From a virus, in IMG/VR virus record IMGVR_UViG_3300041955_000768, positions 1 through 33,670 of that record: a DNA stretch of 33,670 bases; one strand, 5' to 3'. Of this stretch, positions 1,223-33,138 are shown one piece after another. The notes below the pieces were generated by a model, which had not been told where the DNA came from, did not search any database, and was given only the letters and a program-made list of their open reading frames with translations. The position numbers and the translations under genes were made by a program. How positions within the stretch are numbered: position 1 is the stretch's first letter; each line of letters begins with the position of its first letter.

Positions 1223-1806
1223 CTTTGCATTCCGAAACTCGCGGCGCGCGATCGGATCATCGCATCAAAACGCGCGAATTCCAGTTGCGGCAGATCGCGG
1301 CCGATATCCTGCATCGGTGTCATTGCAATATTGAGCGGTCGGTCCCCTCTTTCGAAAAGGCGATCACGGATAACCCGGCGTTGCTTTTCGAAGTCTTGAA
1401 ATTTTATAACCCGTTGCTGCTCGGCGAAGCGTTGCGGTTTTATTTGGCCGAGCATGCAACAGGTAAGTTTCCCGCTGGCAATGACCGAAATCGCCGTGCG
1501 CCTTCGCGCCCGAGCACGTTTGTCGGCCAGCGGGAACCGTCTTCTTCGGCCCTCGCTGCAACACTGAGCGTTGCGAAGAATATGGCGCGAACCGTGCTGG
1601 ATACGTCGAAGACTAGCGATGGCCGCCCGTGGGGCGATGTTTGTGCCCATGAACTTGGTGGCATGGAGCGCGATGGGAAATTCGCCGCCGCGTTGCGCGA
1701 CAAGATCGGCGCGTTGAACGATAAGCAGCGAACTCTGCCGATCCGCGAACTGATCTCGCCGGATGGTTTCTCCGCCGTTTTGCGCCAGATGGAGTCGGTG
1801 GCATGA
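1219..1806 (+). CDS. Conserved-looking phage protein, unknown function
   Basis: A 195-residue soluble protein. I chose the start at 1219 because it forms an ATGA junction with the preceding mini-gene; the ATG at 1135 would read through that gene in another frame. The N-terminal half is helical, the middle is a Pro/Ser/Arg-rich linker, and the C-terminal part (LDTSKTSDGRPWGDVCAHEL, then IRELISPDGF) resembles, from memory, a short segment found in small proteins of rhizobial phages. It overlaps the following IS110-like gene by four bases, so the two are probably translated together. No function can be assigned. Confidence 0.65.
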   Translation: MTLHSETRGARSDHRIKTREFQLRQIAADILHRCHCNIERSVPSFEKAITDNPALLFEVLKFYNPLLLGEALRFYLAEHATGKFPAGNDRNRRAPSRPSTFVGQREPSSSALAATLSVAKNMARTVLDTSKTSDGRPWGDVCAHELGGMERDGKFAAALRDKIGALNDKQRTLPIRELISPDGFSAVLRQMESVA

Positions 1807-3044
1807 TCGAACACGCGATCGATCACATCCGCGCCTTGCATCGGCAGCGCTGTTTTGCGATGGCGCAGCGCATCGGAATTCGCAACCGACTTGGCGCCTT
1901 CATCCGGATCGGGCTCGGCTGGTCGCTGTCGCAAAGCGAAGCGGAACGCAAAAAAATCGCCACGGCCGCGGCAAAGCTGATCAAGGCCGGCGGCGGCGAA
2001 TGGGCCGATCTTGTCACCGGCACCGATAAATCATCGGAAGCCTGGGACATAATCGAAGCCTCTGCGCTGAAGCAGATGATCGCTTTGGCCAAAACGCTTC
2101 CGGTATGGGAAGCCTTCGGCAAGGATGTACGCGGCTTCGGCGCGGCATCGTTGGCTGTGATCATTGGCGAAGCCGGCGAACTTTCCAATTACTCATCCCG
2201 CGCCAAGCTTTGGAAGCGCATGGGCTTGGCCGTGATGAACGGCGTTCGTCAGGGCGGCCTGCCTTCGAGTGCTTCGAAGGATGACTGGATCGCTCACGGC
2301 TACAATCGGCAGCGCCGGTCGCGGATGTGGAATATCGGCGACACTTTGATCAAGGGAAATAAAGATCGCTATCGCGAGCTTTATCTGAAGCGCAAGCGTT
2401 ACGAAGTCGAACGCGATCCATCAATCAAGCCGATTGTGGCGCATCGCCGCGCGCAGCGGGTGATGGAAAAAGCCTTTCTTTGCGATCTTTGGATCGCATG
2501 GCGGCGCGCGGCCATTGATAATGTGGCGGATCATCCGCCCGAGATCTCCATGCCGCGCGCCGATCTTTCCTCCTCGCAAGAGGAACTGGCGCCCAGTTCG
2601 GCATTGGCGCGAAAATCGCCCTGCGTAGAAATGGCGCCATTCTCTCCATCCGCGCAAGCGGCGCCGGCGCCCTTGGATCACGTGGCGACTTCGCCCCCCA
2701 GAGGCTTGGCGCCGGCAAATCCTTCACCGCAAGGTGAGCCTGCGCCCACGTCAACTTTGGCGGCGGCGCCGCCCAAGCATAGGATGGCGCAGGTAATTCC
2801 TTCACCGCGAGGTGAGCCGGCGCCCAAATTTGGAATGGCGGCAAAAGCGCCCGCTTCCATCCTGGCGCCGGCAAATTCTTCCGCGCAAGCGGAGCCGGCG
2901 CCCAACATCCGATTGGCGGCGATGCCGCCCGGTGAAAGCGTGGCGCCGGCAGACTTAATCAGGCGATGCGAAAACTGCCGCCCTTGGGGAGATGCCTTCT
3001 TCCCGAAATCACCTGAACCGATGAAGCTGGTCAGACCGTCATGA
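1803..3044 (+). CDS. IS110-transposase C-terminal-domain-like protein with repeat tail
   Basis: A 413-residue protein. Residues ~1-240 resemble the C-terminal (Transposase_20) part of IS110/IS116/IS902 transposases: a helical lead, a helix-hairpin-helix-like stretch (GFGAASLAVIIGEAGELSNY, then LWKRMGLAV), then an R/Y-rich part (RSRMWNIGDTLI) and a final helix (AHRRAQRVMEKAF). The N-terminal RuvC-like DEDD domain of real IS110 enzymes is absent, and the catalytic Ser expected after the LGL motif appears replaced (MGLAVMNGVRQGG). So a DNA-binding role, not transposition, is likely. Residues ~255-385 are a low-complexity tail of ~26-residue repeats around S-x-Q/R-x-E-P-A-P. It starts at an ATGA overlap with the previous gene. 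There are no transposon ends or target duplication at its borders, so it is a resident phage gene rather than an insertion. Confidence 0.6.
   Translation: MIEHAIDHIRALHRQRCFAMAQRIGIRNRLGAFIRIGLGWSLSQSEAERKKIATAAAKLIKAGGGEWADLVTGTDKSSEAWDIIEASALKQMIALAKTLPVWEAFGKDVRGFGAASLAVIIGEAGELSNYSSRAKLWKRMGLAVMNGVRQGGLPSSASKDDWIAHGYNRQRRSRMWNIGDTLIKGNKDRYRELYLKRKRYEVERDPSIKPIVAHRRAQRVMEKAFLCDLWIAWRRAAIDNVADHPPEISMPRADLSSSQEELAPSSALARKSPCVEMAPFSPSAQAAPAPLDHVATSPPRGLAPANPSPQGEPAPTSTLAAAPPKHRMAQVIPSPRGEPAPKFGMAAKAPASILAPANSSAQAEPAPNIRLAAMPPGESVAPADLIRRCENCRPWGDAFFPKSPEPMKLVRPS
2571..2893 (+). repeat. Five in-frame repeats, each with a GNRA-capped hairpin
   Basis: Repeat cores start at 2571, 2649, 2724, 2802 and 2880 (spacing 78, 75, 78, 78). 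Each core is arm-loop-arm: TCCTC-GCAA-GAGGA, CCGC-GCAA-GCGG, TCACC-GCAA-GGTGA, TCACC-GCGA-GGTGA and TCCGC-GCAA-GCGGA. The loops are all GNRA. The arms differ in sequence but every four inner pairs are Watson-Crick, so two pair positions covary. The codons read S-x-Q/R-x-E/A. Other perfect palindromes lie between them: 2525-2539, 2583-2599 and 2630-2641. The units look like small REP-type palindromes amplified in frame. Confidence 0.75.
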
Positions 3045-3349
3045 TGCCAGATCAACAACAGCGCCGCGACTATCTCAAATCCTTCGGCGTGAAAATGTCG
3101 CCGCTTGTTCCGGACGTCGAACAGCAAAGTCCGGCGATGCGCGACGTGCTTCGCCAGTACGATCTACCGTCCGCGTTCGATCTTTTCGAAATCACTTGCG
3201 AAGCCGCGATCCGCGCCTTGCCGCCGGCGATGCAGGAAGCGGTGAAGATCGAAGCCACCAATCTTCGCGACATGATTGTGGCCAACGCGGCGGCATCCGC
3301 GCTCGCCTATTCGATGACAGTGCTGCGGCTGGTCGCGCCGTCGCGCTGA
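3041..3349 (+). CDS. Small helical protein of unknown function
   Basis: A 102-residue protein, predominantly helical with an Ala-rich C-terminal third (VANAAASALAYSMTVLRLVA). The start overlaps the stop of the IS110-like gene (TCATGATG), so it is likely translated from the same message. No motif, signal peptide or metal site is visible. The stop is followed by a 76-bp gap before the next start. Confidence 0.6.
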   Translation: MMPDQQQRRDYLKSFGVKMSPLVPDVEQQSPAMRDVLRQYDLPSAFDLFEITCEAAIRALPPAMQEAVKIEATNLRDMIVANAAASALAYSMTVLRLVAPSR

Positions 3350-3425: not shown

Positions 3426-3650
3426 ATGCTGCCCCATTGCCCGCATCTCGATCATGCCGCCGCGACGCTGCTTTGCGTTGGGTTGATGCTTTTCGTCTGC
3501 GTGCTTTTCGTGGGCTCACTGGCGGCCCTGGCGGCGCTCAACGTCTGGCCGCTGCAGCAACGGCACATGCGCAAGGGCGGCATGAATCCCGCGCCGAAGA
3601 ATTTCGTTCGGCCTGCGCCGCCGGCGCCCTTCCGGCCGGAGCCGCGATGA
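3426..3650 (+). CDS. Single-span membrane protein with Pro-rich tail
   Basis: A 74-residue protein. After a short His/Cys-containing start comes one long hydrophobic segment (TLLCVGLMLFVCVLFVGSLA, continuing AALAALNVW), then a basic, Pro-rich tail (NFVRPAPPAPFRPEPR). The start at 3426 is chosen over 3381 because it puts the membrane helix near the N-terminus; the ribosome site is weak in either case. The stop overlaps the ParB-like gene start (ATGA, 3647-3650). Function is unknown. Confidence 0.5.
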   Translation: MLPHCPHLDHAAATLLCVGLMLFVCVLFVGSLAALAALNVWPLQQRHMRKGGMNPAPKNFVRPAPPAPFRPEPR

Positions 3651-4498
3651 CGGCGCTTCGCAAAATCGACGCATCGATTTTCAAGAAGGCGGTCGGCACA
3701 TTGCCGCCGCTCGATTGCGGCCAGGTCCCCCAGCTGTGCTGGATCGATATCGATCAGCTTGTGGTCGATCCGGCCTATCAACGCGACATTGGCGGCGCAG
3801 GAAAGAAGAACATCGCCAAGATCGCCCGCGAATTCGAATGGGCGCGCTTTTCGCCCGTGATCGTTGCGCCGCACGGCAAGGACCGTTTCGCCATCGTTGA
3901 CGGCCAGCATCGCACGACGGCCGCCGCGCTGCGCGAGCATAAGAAGGTGCCGTGTCAGGTGATCTCGGCCGATACGGCCAAGCAAGCGATCGCCTTCGCT
4001 TCCATCAATGCCAACGTCACGAAAATGAGCACGATGCAGCTTCACGCTGCGCGCGTCGCCGCCGGCGATCCGGATGCCGTTCGGCTGAAGAAAGTCTGCG
4101 AGGCTGGCGGCGTCACGCTGCTTCGATATCCGATCGAGGCGAGCAAACAAAAGCCGGGGCAAACGATGGCGGTCGTGCAATTGCGCCAGGCGCTCGACCG
4201 CTATGGCGAAAAGGCATTGCGCATTGCGCTGCAGTGCATCACGCGCACGCGCCACGGCAATCCGGGGATGGTGCGCGGCTTGCTCGTGCTTTCCTTGTGC
4301 AGCGTGTTCGACTCTGAACGCGGCTGGCTCAATCATCCGCAGATCGTGACCGCGTTCCAGGCGTTCGATTTTGCGGCGGCGTTCAAGAGTGCAGGTCATT
4401 CCGCCGGCGGCTTCAGTCAGCAGGCTTTCAGGACGGCGCTTGTCAAGCTGATCACTGAGTTTCTGACGAAGGCGGTCGGCATGGGGGGGGGCAGATGA
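3647..4498 (+). CDS. ParB N-terminal-domain protein (DGQHRT type)
   Basis: A 283-residue protein with a ParB/Srx-like fold at residues ~25-130: IDIDQLVVDPAYQRDIGG, then FAIVDGQHRTTAAAL, the nucleotide-binding motif of this fold, and VPCQVIS. The rest is helical. There is no recognisable ParB central helix-turn-helix, so it is not a classical partition protein; such stand-alone domains occur in phages as NTP-binding or nuclease-like proteins and in DNA-modification loci. The start at 3647 makes an ATGA overlap; the open frame upstream to 3437 is in the shadow of another gene. The gene ends with a run of nine G (4483-4491) encoding Gly-Gly-Gly. It is one of four ParB-domain proteins in the window. 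Confidence 0.75.
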   Translation: MTALRKIDASIFKKAVGTLPPLDCGQVPQLCWIDIDQLVVDPAYQRDIGGAGKKNIAKIAREFEWARFSPVIVAPHGKDRFAIVDGQHRTTAAALREHKKVPCQVISADTAKQAIAFASINANVTKMSTMQLHAARVAAGDPDAVRLKKVCEAGGVTLLRYPIEASKQKPGQTMAVVQLRQALDRYGEKALRIALQCITRTRHGNPGMVRGLLVLSLCSVFDSERGWLNHPQIVTAFQAFDFAAAFKSAGHSAGGFSQQAFRTALVKLITEFLTKAVGMGGGR

Positions 4499-4802: not shown

Positions 4803-5282
4803 ATGACGCAAGCCCGCGATGCCGTTTATCTCGCCGGCCCGGCAGTCTTGCGGCCGGATGCCGATGCGATCGGCCTAGCGCTGAAGGCTATGTGCGAGGC
4901 CGAAGGATTGGAAGCCCTGTGGCAGGGCGACAACAAGATCGATCCACACGATTTGACGGCGCCGGCGCGGCAGCTATTCAACGCCAATGTGGCGATGATC
5001 AAGCGCGCCCGCGCTGTGGTCGCCGACATATCGCCGTTCCGCGGGCCACATATGGATTGCGGCACCGCGGCCGAGATTGGCCGCGCCGGCGCCTGGCGAA
5101 AGCCGATCTTCGCTTACACCGAAGATTGTGATGGGCTATTGATTGAGAATTTCGGCCTTCCCGAAAACCTGATGATCGCCTGCGAAATCGAACCGGACGT
5201 GGCGCCGTCCGCTGCGATCGCGATCAAGCGCTGTGCCCGGCACCTGCGCTATCTGCGCTCGCGTTCGCTGGAGCAAGTGTGA
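4803..5282 (+). CDS. Nucleoside 2-deoxyribosyltransferase
   Basis: A 159-residue protein of the usual length for the family. VYLAGPAVLRPDA near the N-terminus is the substrate-binding start. VADISPFRGPHMDCGTAAEI in the middle supplies the conserved acidic residues and the Glu of the GTAxEIG segment, the expected nucleophile region. KPIFAYTED and ENLMIA complete the fold. The enzyme moves deoxyribose between bases, or removes a base from a deoxynucleotide, in the cytoplasm. In a phage it would adjust nucleotide pools or clear nucleotides with unwanted bases. It overlaps the next gene by one base (TGATG) and sits directly before an HD-type nucleotidase pair. Confidence 0.85.
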   Translation: MTQARDAVYLAGPAVLRPDADAIGLALKAMCEAEGLEALWQGDNKIDPHDLTAPARQLFNANVAMIKRARAVVADISPFRGPHMDCGTAAEIGRAGAWRKPIFAYTEDCDGLLIENFGLPENLMIACEIEPDVAPSAAIAIKRCARHLRYLRSRSLEQV

Positions 5283-11607: not shown

Positions 11608-12465
11608 ATGGCAACGCCCGATTATTCGCCGCTGTTCTTTTGGGTCCGCGAGCGCGAGAAAATCCGCAGCAGCAAGGATTGCAATTGCCCGTGGCCGTGG
11701 ACCGATGATGCGATCCTTTCCACGTATCGCTTTTGCAACGTGCGCCGCGAAGACGATCGGGTGACGAAGTGGATCGATCAATTCATCCGCCTGCCCTTCG
11801 CCGGCCATCAATATCTGTGGTTGATGCTGTGCGTTGCGCGGCAGATCAATTGGCCTGAAACGCTGGCCGACTTGATCTCAAATGGTGCGTGGCCGGATTA
11901 TCAGAAGTTTGACCCTGCGGAAATTGCGATCATCCTCAATCGCCGCAAGCTTAATGGCCAGAAAATCTATACCGGCGCTTACATGATATCGGCGCCTGCG
12001 CAAAAGGGCGCTGACAAGCAACGCTATATCGCTGAAGTCGTGATCGGCGACCTGTGGCGCCGCCGGGACCTTTTTCGCCTGGCGCCATACACGCTGCAGG
12101 GTAAACACGAGTGGATCACGCGTTCGAATGGTTGGGGCCAGTTCATGGCTTATCAGGCCGTGGTCGATATGCGCTTCACCGGGCTGTTGCGCGACGCGCA
12201 GGATGTAGCGACGTGGGCAGCTGCTGGCCCCGGCACAATCCGCGGGCTTAACCGGCTTCACGGCCGCAACGTCGACGGCGGCCTTCCGCAAGCACAGGCG
12301 CTGGCCGAAATGCGCGCGATCTACAAGGTGGTGGTCGCTGAAACCGGCGTGCAGATGGATTTCAGCGACGTTCCAAACATCCTTTGTGAAACCGACAAGT
12401 ATCTGCGGGTCAAGCGCGGCGAAGGCAAGCCGCGCGCGCTTTACATTGCGGGGCCGGGCTGGTGA
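11608..12465 (+). CDS. Thymine-hypermodification helical protein (5-hmdU kinase helical / aGPT-PPlase type)
   Basis: A 285-residue protein with the signature of this family: FFWVREREKIRSSKDC, PWTDDAILSTYRFCNVRRED, then VTKWIDQ, and further helical blocks ending KYLRVKRGEGKPR. In phages with hypermodified thymine, such helical glycosylase-like domains act after a hydroxymethyl-dU kinase, exchanging the pyrophosphate on the base for an amine or amino acid. Here the helical protein stands alone with no kinase P-loop. No thymidylate-synthase-like hydroxymethylase is in the window, so the precursor must come from outside or the reaction differs. The ATG lies one base after the DUF4031 stop. Confidence 0.7.
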   Translation: MATPDYSPLFFWVREREKIRSSKDCNCPWPWTDDAILSTYRFCNVRREDDRVTKWIDQFIRLPFAGHQYLWLMLCVARQINWPETLADLISNGAWPDYQKFDPAEIAIILNRRKLNGQKIYTGAYMISAPAQKGADKQRYIAEVVIGDLWRRRDLFRLAPYTLQGKHEWITRSNGWGQFMAYQAVVDMRFTGLLRDAQDVATWAAAGPGTIRGLNRLHGRNVDGGLPQAQALAEMRAIYKVVVAETGVQMDFSDVPNILCETDKYLRVKRGEGKPRALYIAGPGW

Positions 12466-22144: not shown

Positions 22145-22891
22145 ATGGCTGAAGGTCAACAGGAAAGCGGCATTATCAGCAGCGCGCTCGGCGCGGCGCT
22201 GTTGCAGATCGAACCGAAAGATTTTAGAGCGCTTGAACGCAAAGGTTTTTTCGTTCCGAGTAGCAAGGATCAATTTCGCCTGGTCGAAGTGGTGCGCGGT
22301 TATATCCGCTTCCTGCAAAAAGAACGCGCTGCCACGGGGCGCACGTCGGCGGAAGCGGCGGCCCACATCGACCTAGGCGAGCGGCGTTTTTTCGAATTAT
22401 TGAATGACGGATCGATCACGCGCGCTGAAAGCTATGATCTGGATGCCGTGCGTGTTCAATACATCCGTCATCTGCGCAAGGTCGCATCGGGCCGAGGATC
22501 AAATCCAAATATCGATCTGGGAACCGAACGCGCACTGCTGACGCGCGAGCAAGCCGAAGCGGTTTCGATGCGTAATCGCCTGGCGCGCGGCGAACTTGTC
22601 GTGATCGAAGAAGTCGCGCGGCAGGTTGAGGGTGAATATGCCGTGGTCCGGCAATTGTTGCTGGCGATCCCCGGCAAGATGGCCGATGTGCTGGAAGGAA
22701 TGAGCCGCGAGCAACGCGAGGCGGCCATAGCAAAGGAAATCACAGAGGCGTTGAATGAACTTCACACCCCCGGCAACCGCGCGGTCGATGGCGAGCGCGA
22801 AGCCGCTGCCGATCGGCCGGCTGGAACTGAAGGCGCGCTTGCGCCTGTGCCGCCGGGCGCTGAAGCCGCCGCCGCGCCTGTCGCTGATTGA
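22145..22891 (+). CDS. Terminase small subunit (Nu1-like)
   Basis: A 248-residue protein. A winged-helix-like N-terminus (GFFVPSSKDQFRLVEVVRGY) and a second DNA-binding part (HIDLGERRFFELLNDGSITR) lead to the helical core (LLTREQAEAVSMRNRLARGE, VVRQLLLAIPGKMADVL) typical of Nu1-type small terminases. The tail is Ala/Pro-rich. It recognises the packaging site and partners with the GpA-type large subunit next to it. The start at 22145 replaces an open frame from 22043 whose first part overlaps the previous gene. The end overlaps the large subunit by 137 bp. Confidence 0.85.
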   Translation: MAEGQQESGIISSALGAALLQIEPKDFRALERKGFFVPSSKDQFRLVEVVRGYIRFLQKERAATGRTSAEAAAHIDLGERRFFELLNDGSITRAESYDLDAVRVQYIRHLRKVASGRGSNPNIDLGTERALLTREQAEAVSMRNRLARGELVVIEEVARQVEGEYAVVRQLLLAIPGKMADVLEGMSREQREAAIAKEITEALNELHTPGNRAVDGEREAAADRPAGTEGALAPVPPGAEAAAAPVAD

Positions 22892-25800
22892 GTGGGCGGA
22901 TACCTATCGTTACGTCGCCGACAAAACTTCTGCCAGTCCCGGCAAGTGGCGCACAGCAACGCAGCCGGTTGCATTTGGGCCTATGGCCGCGATCACGGAA
23001 GGCGATACGCATACCGTGACCGTGATGGCCGGCACGCAGGTCGTTAAAACCGAATTCCTGATCAACGTCGCCGGCTACTACATCCACCAGGACCCTTCGC
23101 CGGTCCTGCTGGTGCAGCCGACACAAAGCGCTGCGCAGTCATTTTCCAAGGAACGGTTTGCGCCCACGATCGAAGCGACGCCGGCGCTGCGCGACCTGGT
23201 GCAGGTGCCGCGCTCGCGCGATAGTGAAAACACGATCACGCATAAGGCTTATCCCGGCGGATCGCTGGATTTTGTCGGCGCCAATTCGCCCACCGATCTC
23301 GCGTCGCGGCCGAAGCGGATCATCTTGTGCGATGAGGTTGACAAGTATCCGCCGTCCGCGGGCGCCGAAGGTGATCCGCTCAAGCTCGCGGAAGAACGCG
23401 CATCGACCTACAAGGCGCTCAATCGCGCCAAGTTCGCGCGCACCTGTTCGCCCACGGTCGAAGGCGCGTCGCGTATCGGCCGTGAATACAAGGCTTCGGA
23501 TCGGCGCAAGTGCTACGTCGCGTGTCCCTTTTGCGAATTCGAACAGGTTCTAACCTGGTCGCATGTTCGCTGGGATCGCGACGCGACCGCCGCACACCTT
23601 CCCGAAACAGCAGCGATCGTTTGCGAAAAGTGTGGGACGATCTGGTCGGAACGCGATCGTGCCGCCGCGCTGGATGGGTTGGCGGGTGCGCCGGCGTTCG
23701 GCTGGCGCCAGACAAAGCCTTTCAGTTGCTGCGGCGAAGAACAGGTGCCGGAAGCGTGGGACGATCGCGGCCGCGCGCGTTGCACGCTGTGCGGCAGTCA
23801 GGCATCCTACAATGGCCACGCCGGCTTCCACATTTCGAAGCTTTACAGCAAGCGCCATCGCCTCGCGGAAATCGTGCAGGAATTCCTGGATGCGCAGGGC
23901 AATCCGGAACTGCTGAAGAAGTTTACGAACACGGCGCTGGCCGAAGAGTGGAAGCAGCAGGTCGGCGAAGGCTTCAGCAACGATGATCTGAAGTCCCGCG
24001 CCGAAGTGTACGGGCCGGAAAGTCTGCCGGACGCGATCCGCGCGGTGACCGCCTATACTGACGTGCAGGGCGATCGGCTGGAAACGCAGCTGATCGGATG
24101 GGGACCTGACGAAGAATCCTGGCCGTTCCAGTACACGGTCATCAATCTTGATCCGGCGCAGCCCGCGGCATGGGCCGAACTGGATCGGCTGCTGCTAAGC
24201 GTGTTCAAGACGGTCACGGGTCGCGTGCTGCGCGTCGCCGCCGCCGGCGTCGATGCGCGCTATCAAACCGCGCAGGTGCTGGATTTCTGCCGGCGCCGGC
24301 GCAGCCGCCGCGTCTTCCCCTGCATGGGCACCGCTGGCCCGCGGCCGCTGTGGCCAAGCCGCGCCAGCCGCACGAAGACAAACGAACCGATCTATTTGAC
24401 GGGAGTCGATTCGGGCAAAGAGTCGCTGATGGCGCGGCTGAAGATCGAACCGCCGGCGCCTGGCGAGCGTAAGCCCGGCTTCATTCATTTCCCGGTCGCC
24501 GATCCCGCCGCCGGCACCGACGGATTCAATGCGGCCTATTTCGAACAGTTGACTGCGGAACGCCGCGAAGTACGATTGCGCATGGGCCAGCCTTATAGTG
24601 TTTGGATTTTGCCGCCCGGCAAACGCAACGAATGCTTCAGCGCCGATACTGAAGTGCTGACCGATAGGGGCTGGAAGCTGTTTTCCGAACTAGATAGATC
24701 GGAAGCTGTCGCCACGGTCAATCTGTCTAATGATCTGATAGAGTATCAGCCTCCTACAGCATACATCGATCGCGCTTATAGCGGCGAAATGGTCGCGCTT
24801 CATGGTAGGCGCATTGATGCGCTAGTGACGCCGAACCACCGAATGATCACTTGCTCGGCGCGAAGCATTTGGAAGGGTCGCGAAAGGCCGCGCGATATAT
24901 TGGCTAAGGACCTGAAGGATTTCCACGGCCTAAAATATTCTTCTCGCTGGATTGGTGATGACAATCTAATCTTCGTGCCCGCTCCTGTCAGCAAACAGGG
25001 CCGAGAAATTACCTCGGCCTTAACATTAGATCGCGGCGATCTCGCGGAGTTTTTTGGCTGGTATATTTGCGAGGGATGTTCATGGAAGTCCCCTCACGAT
25101 GTGCGGACCATAATTTCACAAAATGAAGGGCCGAAGGCTGAAACGATTCGTTCTCTTCTGAGACGGCTGCCGTGGCGTTTTAGAGAAAGCAAAAGGGGCG
25201 ATTGCGTCAACTTTATAATCAATTCGCGTCAGGCATTCGATTTGGTTCAATCTTGCGGCGCCGGCGCGCCTAATAAAAGAGTTCCGCGTTGGATTCTCGA
25301 ATCCTCTCCCAAGGTTCTGGAGCGATTTTTCGCGGCCTGCGTTGCTGGCGATGGTTGGACTGACGACGCTGGGCATCGCACCGTTGCTACGACAAGCAGG
25401 GGATTCGCTGACGATCTGCAGGAATGTCTTGTCAAAATGGGCCGCGGTTCCACCAATAAAATAGTTCAACCGGACTCATCCATAATCAGGCTTCGCGGCG
25501 AGCGTTGGAATTGCCTCCCTCAGTATCATGTCAATGAAATTAGAACCAAACACATTTGGCTGAAGGGCGCGGATGAAAACGGTGGTTCAATTATCGGCCG
25601 CGTGAATTATGTCGGACGCGTTTATTGTATTACCGTGCCGAACGGCACTTTGATTTGTCGTCGCAACAGAAAGACTTTTATTGCCGGCAATTGTCTCGAT
25701 ACTTATGTGGGCGCGCTCGCCGTGCGCAGATCTCTGCCGCGCTACATCGAACGCGGGTTGGAATTTGCAATTGCCAATAAGCAGGCGGGAGCGCCGACTC

Positions 25801-26009
25801 CAGCCGCGCCGGCGGCGGACGGCGCCGCGGAAGTTATCGCCGGCGCGGCGGCCGTGGTTGCGAACGTTCCATTGATCGCTGATCCTGTCACCGAAGAAGA
25901 CGCAAGCGGCGCCGAACGGGTTGCGCATCAGGAATTCGCGGCCGCGCAGCCGCGGCCGGACTTCATCCGCGCGCGGCCGAATTGGTTAAGGCGCGATCGG
26001 GAGGTGTGA
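22755..26009 (+). CDS. Terminase large subunit (GpA-like), intein-interrupted
   Basis: A 1084-residue reading frame. The N-extein is residues 1-626 (22755-24632) and the C-extein 980-1084 (25692-26006), so the spliced protein has 731 residues, normal for GpA terminases. The ATPase shows a Walker A-like segment at ~90 (AGTQVVKTEF) and Walker B at ~188 (IILCDEVDKYP). Two Cys pairs fit a zinc module (CPFC, CEKCG), with more at CTLCG. The nuclease domain starts near YTDVQGDRLETQLIGW and continues with VDARYQ. The conserved NE-CLD segment near its end is where the intein sits. The ATG at 22755 is preceded by GAGG. It packages phage DNA into the prohead at the portal. Confidence 0.9.
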   Translation: MNFTPPATARSMASAKPLPIGRLELKARLRLCRRALKPPPRLSLIEWADTYRYVADKTSASPGKWRTATQPVAFGPMAAITEGDTHTVTVMAGTQVVKTEFLINVAGYYIHQDPSPVLLVQPTQSAAQSFSKERFAPTIEATPALRDLVQVPRSRDSENTITHKAYPGGSLDFVGANSPTDLASRPKRIILCDEVDKYPPSAGAEGDPLKLAEERASTYKALNRAKFARTCSPTVEGASRIGREYKASDRRKCYVACPFCEFEQVLTWSHVRWDRDATAAHLPETAAIVCEKCGTIWSERDRAAALDGLAGAPAFGWRQTKPFSCCGEEQVPEAWDDRGRARCTLCGSQASYNGHAGFHISKLYSKRHRLAEIVQEFLDAQGNPELLKKFTNTALAEEWKQQVGEGFSNDDLKSRAEVYGPESLPDAIRAVTAYTDVQGDRLETQLIGWGPDEESWPFQYTVINLDPAQPAAWAELDRLLLSVFKTVTGRVLRVAAAGVDARYQTAQVLDFCRRRRSRRVFPCMGTAGPRPLWPSRASRTKTNEPIYLTGVDSGKESLMARLKIEPPAPGERKPGFIHFPVADPAAGTDGFNAAYFEQLTAERREVRLRMGQPYSVWILPPGKRNECFSADTEVLTDRGWKLFSELDRSEAVATVNLSNDLIEYQPPTAYIDRAYSGEMVALHGRRIDALVTPNHRMITCSARSIWKGRERPRDILAKDLKDFHGLKYSSRWIGDDNLIFVPAPVSKQGREITSALTLDRGDLAEFFGWYICEGCSWKSPHDVRTIISQNEGPKAETIRSLLRRLPWRFRESKRGDCVNFIINSRQAFDLVQSCGAGAPNKRVPRWILESSPKVLERFFAACVAGDGWTDDAGHRTVATTSRGFADDLQECLVKMGRGSTNKIVQPDSSIIRLRGERWNCLPQYHVNEIRTKHIWLKGADENGGSIIGRVNYVGRVYCITVPNGTLICRRNRKTFIAGNCLDTYVGALAVRRSLPRYIERGLEFAIANKQAGAPTPAAPAADGAAEVIAGAAAVVANVPLIADPVTEEDASGAERVAHQEFAAAQPRPDFIRARPNWLRRDREV
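24633..25691 (+). mobile_element. Intein with LAGLIDADG homing endonuclease
   Basis: A 353-residue insert in frame within the terminase. It begins at Cys (CFSADTEVLTDRG, splicing block A), has block B (ALVTPNHRM), and ends with GRVYCITVPNG, ICRRN and TFIAGN, followed by the +1 Cys. The residue before the final Asn is Gly instead of the classic His, a variant common in phage inteins. Two LAGLIDADG-type motifs lie at 25041-25076 (LAEFFGWYICEG) and 25317-25358 (LERFFAACVAGDGW), each with the acidic residue. It splices itself out and, by inference, homes into intein-free terminase genes. The DNA is visibly poorer in G/C than the flanking exteins, supporting transfer. Confidence 0.9.
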
Positions 26010-32217: not shown

Positions 32218-33138
32218 ATGTCCGCGCGTGAAGTGTTCATTGCCATCCCGGCTTGGGGCAGAGAGTACGTTAATCTCGCGGTGCGCTACACGATCCCGGC
32301 CACGCTTGCGGCCTTGCGCGCCTGGCGATCGGATTATGCAGCGCATTTCTTGGTTCACACGTATGAGCGCGATGCTTTTGCAGTCGCGCTGCGCGGCCAG
32401 CACGTTGAATACCGCGATCCGCAAGCTGGTCCTGGCCACGACGGCCAATGGGTCGCCTTTAAGCAGGCGCATCGCGACGCGATTGCGTGGGCGCCGCAAG
32501 GCGCGCTGCTGGCGCTTTTGAATTCCGATATCGTGGTGTCAATCGAAACCTTCGCCGCGGTCGACGCGGCGCTGCAGGGCAAAAAAACGGTCGGGGTTTC
32601 GGTCGGCATCCGCACGCTTATCGATGGCAACGTGCCGCCGATTGGCGCCGATGCCGAAACGTTGTCGCACTATATCTGGGCGCATCGTCATCCGATCACC
32701 GAAGAGTGCATTTGGGGCAGCGGCCGGACACATCATCCGACGATTTTATTCTTCGGTCATACTCCGCAAGCGCCGACTTCCACTCCCGTCGTGTCGATGC
32801 ACTGCTTTCATCTAACGCCGATGTTCATCATCAAGGATCGCCCGCTGGATTTCAAAGGCACGATCGATGATGACGTGCTGGAAGCCTATGGCGAAGATCA
32901 GGTCGTGTATTTTAACAAGCGTGAATTCGCGGTTTGCGAATTGTCGCCGGCAAACAAGAGACATCCTGCGCGCAATCCGCTGAACGTTGCGGAGGTGGTT
33001 GAGTTTGGCAGGCAGCGGTTTCGCGGTTCACACGTGCGAAATTTTCGGCAGCGCTTTGCCGTGCTGGGCAATGCCGATCGCAATCACCAGGCCGCGGATG
33101 CAATCCTTGAAGGTCTTAAGCCGCACTTTCCACAATGA
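32218..33138 (+). CDS. Glycosyltransferase-like protein
   Basis: A 306-residue protein. A Rossmann-like start (VFIAIPAWGREYVNLAVRYT), a middle LLALLNSDIVVSIETF with the acidic residue at the sugar-nucleotide or metal site (~101), and MHCFHLTPMFIIKDRPLDFK, IDDDVLEAYG give a GT-A-type layout. It may glycosylate capsid or tail proteins, or host surface sugars, but the donor and acceptor cannot be read from the sequence. The ATG at 32218 has no strong ribosome site. Its stop overlaps the next start (ATGA). Confidence 0.65.
   Translation: MSAREVFIAIPAWGREYVNLAVRYTIPATLAALRAWRSDYAAHFLVHTYERDAFAVALRGQHVEYRDPQAGPGHDGQWVAFKQAHRDAIAWAPQGALLALLNSDIVVSIETFAAVDAALQGKKTVGVSVGIRTLIDGNVPPIGADAETLSHYIWAHRHPITEECIWGSGRTHHPTILFFGHTPQAPTSTPVVSMHCFHLTPMFIIKDRPLDFKGTIDDDVLEAYGEDQVVYFNKREFAVCELSPANKRHPARNPLNVAEVVEFGRQRFRGSHVRNFRQRFAVLGNADRNHQAADAILEGLKPHFPQ

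Follow-up and report, generated by a model that had tools for sequence, protein, structure and literature searches.

TIGR stem-loop arrays were published in 2025 by Faure et al. (PMC12045711). The main text of that paper describes a TIGR-Tas layout in which spacers of 8 to 12 nucleotides (nt) are accompanied by a box D motif (UG) and a box C motif (CCA), and reports that Tas proteins bind the processed guides. In some Tas clades, according to the same text, the arrays consist of stem-loops in which variable palindromes replace the edge repeats, and the TasA proteins are Nop-only and nuclease-less. For TasR and TasH, spacer A is described as pairing with one strand of the target and spacer B with the other, and the action of TasA on target DNA is left open there. 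Here, we describe a locus of this kind in a viral DNA of 33,670 nt (IMG/VR record IMGVR_UViG_3300041955_000768), the whole stretch of which is referred to below as the window. We consider it probable that the window carries a tasA gene without a nuclease domain, the C-terminal coding region of which doubles as a six-unit TIGR stem-loop array, with the mRNA serving as guide precursor.

The region that codes for the tail of this protein matches a TIGR stem-loop array, with tandem stem-loops, variable palindromic arms and two 9-nt spacers per unit. A first-pass annotation of the DNA had noted five in-frame GNRA hairpins at 2571-2893 with varying, fully paired stems, and more palindromes between the repeats; both are present in the sequence, and the palindromes form six larger stems of 7-11 base pairs (bp), each closing a loop of 36-39 nt, along with a small GGCGnnnCGCC hairpin within every loop. 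The six guide units span 2502-2950, beyond the coordinates first noted, and their anatomy is arm-CA-9 nt spacer A-TG..CCN loop-9 nt spacer B-TG-arm, in which the spacers of all six lie between CCA-like (box C) and TG (box D) motifs. The gene and its guide units are as follows.

1803-3044, + strand: tasA, 413 aa, a Nop-domain core followed by a disordered C-terminal tail
1803-2522, + strand: tasA core, Nop-domain, about aa 1-240, from NCBIfam, PDB profile, AlphaFold2 (AF2) and Foldseek results
About aa 241-413, + strand: tasA tail, disordered (AF2 predicted local distance difference test score, pLDDT, below 50), with nearly the whole array inside it
2502-2562, + strand: guide unit 1, stem of 11 bp, loop repeat at 2524-2541, spacers TTGATAATG (A, 2515-2523) and AGATCTCCA (B, 2542-2550)
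2587-2639, + strand: guide unit 2, stem of 7 bp, loop at 2605-2622, spacers GTTCGGCAT (A, 2596-2604) and GCGTAGAAA (B, 2623-2631)
2663-2716, + strand: guide unit 3, stem of 9 bp, 15-nt loop at 2683-2697, spacers TGGATCACG (A, 2674-2682) and CCAGAGGCT (B, 2698-2706)
2738-2794, + strand: guide unit 4, stem of 9 bp, loop at 2758-2775, spacers CGTCAACTT (A, 2749-2757) and AGCATAGGA (B, 2776-2784)
2816-2872, + strand: guide unit 5, stem of 9 bp, loop at 2836-2853, spacers AATTTGGAA (A, 2827-2835) and CTTCCATCC (B, 2854-2862)
2894-2950, + strand: guide unit 6, stem of 9 bp, loop at 2914-2931, spacers ACATCCGAT (A, 2905-2913) and GTGAAAGCG (B, 2932-2940)

The 5′ arm of unit 1 falls in the codons for the conserved AWRRA end of the core. 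A scan of the record with the unit pattern found the six units of the tail and, outside it, a single match attributed to chance. Measured against codon-level expectation, a check that the first-pass annotation had proposed, the six stems form 54 of 54 pairs, compared with a mean of 39.4 and a maximum of 45 in codon-preserving shuffles, and the folding energy has a z score of -5.8 relative to such shuffles. In the minimum-energy fold, the guide stem-loops of units 1, 2, 4, and 5 are formed, with GNRA hairpins between units, and alternative pairings with neighbouring palindromic edges occupy the arms of units 3 and 6.

The GNRA hairpins, located 75-79 bp apart and in frame of the open reading frame (ORF) at 1803-3044, are linkers between neighbouring guide units. 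All five were seen in the sequence.

2571-2584, + strand: linker hairpin TCCTC-GCAA-GAGGA
2650-2661, + strand: linker hairpin CCGC-GCAA-GCGG
2724-2737, + strand: linker hairpin TCACC-GCAA-GGTGA
2802-2815, + strand: linker hairpin TCACC-GCGA-GGTGA
2880-2893, + strand: linker hairpin TCCGC-GCAA-GCGGA

Synonymous-codon shuffles that kept the protein (n=300) gave a mean of 0.62 and a maximum of 3 GNRA hairpins of at least 4 bp, compared with the 5 observed, which bears out the earlier claim that protein selection alone does not predict them. Among relatives of the locus, such hairpins occur in 20 of 71 linkers of at least 10 nt (0.3 in shuffles), and in a larger set of relatives 19 of 28 linker-hairpin tetraloops, from 16 loci, are GNRA. 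The hairpin pattern TCNNCGCRAGNNGA occurs four times in the 33.7-kb record, each time in tasA, and this confinement rules out palindromic repeats of the REP/RPE type; Rfam returned no match, and the one viral contig matched in a search for a near relative by the linker-hairpin pattern was unrelated and attributed to chance. As to what the linkers do, unit separation or the marking of processing sites are our guesses. The hairpins of the first-pass annotation are therefore real; their position as linkers, the guide units around them and the identity of the protein had escaped it.

The layout of the units is the one published for TIGR-Tas. The protein was then tested as a Tas protein, and the gene at 1803-3044 is tasA, encoding a Tas protein of the nuclease-less TasA subtype. 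The NCBIfam model NF052498 (TIGR_Tas_endo) matches aa 10-234 with an E value of 4.6e-23, covering model positions 2-215 of 215, and PDB profile matches were obtained for TasR (9mty, 5e-18) and TasH (21kl, 4e-5). In the AF2 model, the pLDDT is mostly about 90 in the core and below 50 in the tail, and the core has the fold of a Tas protein (Nop domain with coiled coil): the nine best PDB chains found by Foldseek are TasR or TasH with a probability of 1.00, the next match has an E value of 0.63, and TasR and TasH are the only fold matches with E below 0.01. No RuvC or HNH nuclease domain was seen, no Pfam domain was found in the window protein, and its non-core part is disordered; together with the extent of the NCBIfam match, this assigns the protein to the subtype without nuclease. 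The core also resembles PHROG 4285, which is labelled 'transposase'. An IS110 transposase (DEDD RuvC plus Transposase_20) was considered and rejected, as NF033542 gave only 20 bits against a cut-off of 140; Transposase_20 itself matches weakly in 6 of 11 family members (best E 0.0014), with no Pfam match for the window protein. Tas-like phage proteins elsewhere are annotated as transposase (PHROG 4285) or as hypothetical (QWY83253.1).

Guide units are carried by 105 of 126 relatives. The core relatives are usually without the window's long tail, and in most of them the stop codon comes no more than about 30 codons after the core. In most close relatives, a stem of 9-12 bp closes a loop exactly 30 (or 36-39) nt long, and the 5′ arm of this stem lies either in the codons of the conserved LW.AWRRA core end or shortly 3′ of the stop codon, and a histogram of loop sizes of all strong stems in the relatives' loci has a sharp peak at 30 nt. 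The loops of the relatives read CA-N9-TGNNNNCCA-N9-T and are arrayed upstream of, within and downstream of the gene. In Rhizobium phage RHph_X2_25 (locus L006; MW960032.1, 21119-29460), several such stem-loops surround a tas-like gene, and no array is annotated.

To avoid circularity, units were picked by the loop motif alone, with pairing ignored, in 0.87 Mb. The motif matched 316 times in sense, 38 times in antisense and 3 times in reversed orientation, and the flanks were paired at 7 or more of 8 positions in 241 of the sense matches and in none of the antisense or reversed ones; in a first set of units, 112 of 162 had paired flanks, compared with 4.1 after flank swapping. The first-pass annotation had also proposed a covariation check across relatives, the outcome of which supports its suggestion of a structured RNA within the gene: an alignment of 70 units from 70 loci, chosen regardless of pairing, has a covariation score of 0.684, compared with 0.189 when shuffled and 0.15-0.19 when slid. 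Paired cells make up 82% of this alignment (52% in the shuffled one), and two-sided changes number 185 cells versus 67. The stems are under RNA-level selection.

The units also lie inside the reading frame of tas beyond the window. At least one complete C-terminal unit is found within tas in 30 of 126 loci, and two or more in nine; the window holds the most (six, with none upstream). In 12 loci (e.g., L039, L043, and L057), units separate the Nop core from the N-terminal coiled-coil helix (helix 1), and are flanked on both sides by conserved protein in one frame. Only a single unit-like match occurs inside 57 kb of conserved core, so unit detection is clean. In the window, the tasA ORF is free of stops, with 4 and 7 stops in the other two forward frames. 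The ATG of the next ORF (3041-3349, + strand, 102 aa) overlaps the tasA stop codon (ATGA), which supports translation of the tail through to its end, and the stop codon overlaps the next start in 5 of the 9 loci that have at least two C-terminal units, compared with 15 of the 96 that have none (p 0.012). In relatives with 80-92% core identity, a unit is retained at the same C-terminal position; its spacers differ and its stem changes are compensated. Two further arrays were observed: a very regular one at L183:1009-2200, in which 22 guide units are spaced 48 and 60/63 nt apart and 20 share a single 388-codon open frame distinct from the tas frame, and one at L065:31-2004, where sixteen units precede the Nop core and share a 658-codon open frame with tas.

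It can be argued that the array is real and the tail is not usefully coding, tasA having lost its stop codon beside a noncoding downstream array that happens to be read through. The early stops of most relatives and an expected stop-free run of about 40 codons fit such an event, as does the GC content by codon position, which is flat in spacers within tas ORFs (0.57/0.53/0.54) and unlike that of the core (0.63/0.48/0.74), as if the spacer letters were set by guiding and not by the peptide. We nevertheless regard a lucky read-through as unlikely, given the 12 loci with units between two conserved protein parts, the restriction of stops to the other forward frames and the overlap of the tail's stop codon with the next ATG.

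A feature of the DNA itself, for example an inverted operator or origin iterons for a dimeric protein, as in the lambda O gene, would likewise produce inverted arms and repeated sites in an early phage gene, but would hardly be expected to vary its arms (105 distinct 8-mers among 128 units) with the pairing kept and the 9-nt spacers fixed between box motifs. Single mismatches in the stems are G-U in 32 cases and A-C in 10 (p = 9e-4, counted symmetrically), which fits sense RNA, and together with the sense-strand units and the GNRA tetraloops this makes the DNA explanation very improbable. Between the structured RNA and the single-stranded DNA that the first-pass annotation had offered as alternatives, the same three lines of evidence (sense-strand units, excess of G-U over A-C, mostly GNRA linker tetraloops) favour RNA and disfavour single-stranded DNA. 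A functionless degenerate Ala/Pro repeat, its palindromes left by tandem duplication and template-switch correction, is scarcely credible: the units are 67-88% alike and 75-78 bp apart and GC-rich codons favour pairing, but codon shuffles do not reproduce the stems, the loop motif and its spacing recur in unrelated phages whose stems and spacers are different, and the shuffles, the covariation and the sense-strand and pairing counts refute it as main cause.

Several observations weigh against reading the locus as a tasA gene that stores its own guides: (i) the TIGR_Tas_endo score of 82.3 is below the model's curated cut-off of 100; (ii) box C is loose in the loop repeats of the window (CCG, CCT, CCC, CCA); (iii) at the stop density of noncoding units (2.4%), a stop-free tail this long arises by chance in about 1% of cases per locus, so that among 126 loci the openness of the tail alone is weak and not significant; (iv) unit spacings in tas ORFs are divisible by three in 41 of 70 cases, which we rejected as proof of translation, since TGA at box D bars one frame and raises the share to about one half; (v) the N-terminal units may lie 5′ of the true start codon; (vi) 308 guides, laid out as spacer A plus the reverse complement of spacer B (gap 0-2, at most 2 mismatches), showed no excess of matches over five control layouts in 0.6 Mb of related loci, matches of this layout were no commoner than controls in the window itself, and two guides had no matches in 103 genomes of one relative's family. 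One guide of locus L019 has a one-mismatch match to window position 947, within chance, and two window guides had 6 and 0 matches to viral contigs, which were judged to be chance.

If tasA is nonetheless both effector gene and guide store, an early phage transcript would be translated through the array into the disordered tail, and the same RNA would fold into six units, each a stem with two 9-nt spacers between box C (CCA-like) and box D (UG) and a small hairpin between the spacers. TasA would bind these units and a host RNase would trim them to dual-spacer guides, after which the complex of TasA and guide could bind target DNA, with spacers A and B on opposite strands, and block or bend it without cutting. 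The tasA mRNA would thus be the guide precursor, and TasA output would be self-limiting because the excision of guides would consume the message. Whether this extends to this Tas clade as a whole is a more tentative proposition: its guide arrays could routinely be genic, with units inserted in frame at either terminus of the effector or in its coiled-coil loop, so that each mRNA is message and guide precursor, spacers are exchanged without disturbing the protein, and excision, by destroying the message, yields a self-limiting effector at a fixed guide-to-protein ratio.

The origin, maintenance and processing of TIGR arrays are named as open questions in the main text of the discovery paper (PMC12045711). 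A single message here appears to serve as protein recipe and guide store, and an array inside the frame of its effector dictates from which transcription unit and strand the precursor comes, and predicts that expression limits itself. The relatives with 80-92% identical cores and other spacers at the same place make spacer replacement directly testable. Array finders restricted to intergenic sequence, and annotators who label tas genes as 'transposase', will miss such systems.

The record codes for repressor- and Cro-like proteins, ParB-like proteins, primase, D5-type helicase, terminase, portal, prohead protease and capsid, and from this gene content it is a temperate-type tailed phage; the named bacterial contigs with core relatives are mostly alphaproteobacterial. 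The ParB-like gene (3437-4498, PHROG 1033, E 4e-22) lies two genes 3′ of tasA, and tasA-parB operons were reported in the discovery paper (PMC12045711); tblastn against the other tas loci found no homologue of the window's downstream ORF or ParB-like gene near tas. Other genes deserve brief mention. The terminase large subunit (GpA type, 22755-26009) seems to be interrupted, after about aa 628, by an intein or a comparable insertion. The match to the GpA nuclease stops at this point, similarity to insert-bearing PHROGs of thymidylate synthase, PhoH and ribonucleotide reductase is seen at aa 624-705 and 923-987, and the terminase sequence resumes near CLDTYVGALAVRRSLPRYIERG. A helical domain of 5-hydroxymethyldeoxyuridine (5-hmdU) DNA kinase (11608-12465, E 4e-42) and a nucleoside deoxyribosyltransferase (4803-5282) make hypermodification of DNA bases possible. 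Downstream of the capsid gene, 31341-31991 matches a PHROG labelled alpha-2,3-sialyltransferase (E 1e-26), and an unassigned ORF at 32218-33138 adjoins it.

Compared with known systems, the locus is closest to the TIGR-Tas stem-loop arrays with TasA (PMC12045711), with which it shares a Nop-only Tas protein, a phage setting, tandem stem-loops with variable palindromes, and two short spacers between box C and box D with a variable or hairpin loop between them. It differs from them in that all six units are in frame within tas and that GNRA-capped hairpins stand between the units. Neither arrays inside tas coding sequence nor GNRA linker hairpins are mentioned in the main text of PMC12045711 as searched or in one review, and as far as these texts show, both features are new, the stem-loop arrays and TasA being already known. 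With the dual-repeat TIGR arrays of TasR and TasH, the window shares 9-nt spacers and the alternation of edge and loop repeats, but its edge repeats (42-45 nt, starting with UG and mostly ending with CCA) and loop repeats (15-18 nt) are both far longer than 8-12 nt and form hairpins; the window array looks intermediate between the two published TIGR types. The IS110/IS1111 transposases with bridge RNA have a related Nop/Transposase_20-type domain, two-part guides and the same 'transposase' label in PHROGs; on the other hand, the window protein has no DEDD RuvC domain and only a weak Transposase_20-type resemblance, and an array of units takes the place of a single bridge RNA. Finally, TnpB has its guide (omega RNA) made from its own mRNA (PMC10278001) and so provides a precedent, for the principle only, of effector mRNA as guide source, with an unrelated protein and a single scaffold RNA where tasA has six units within its frame.
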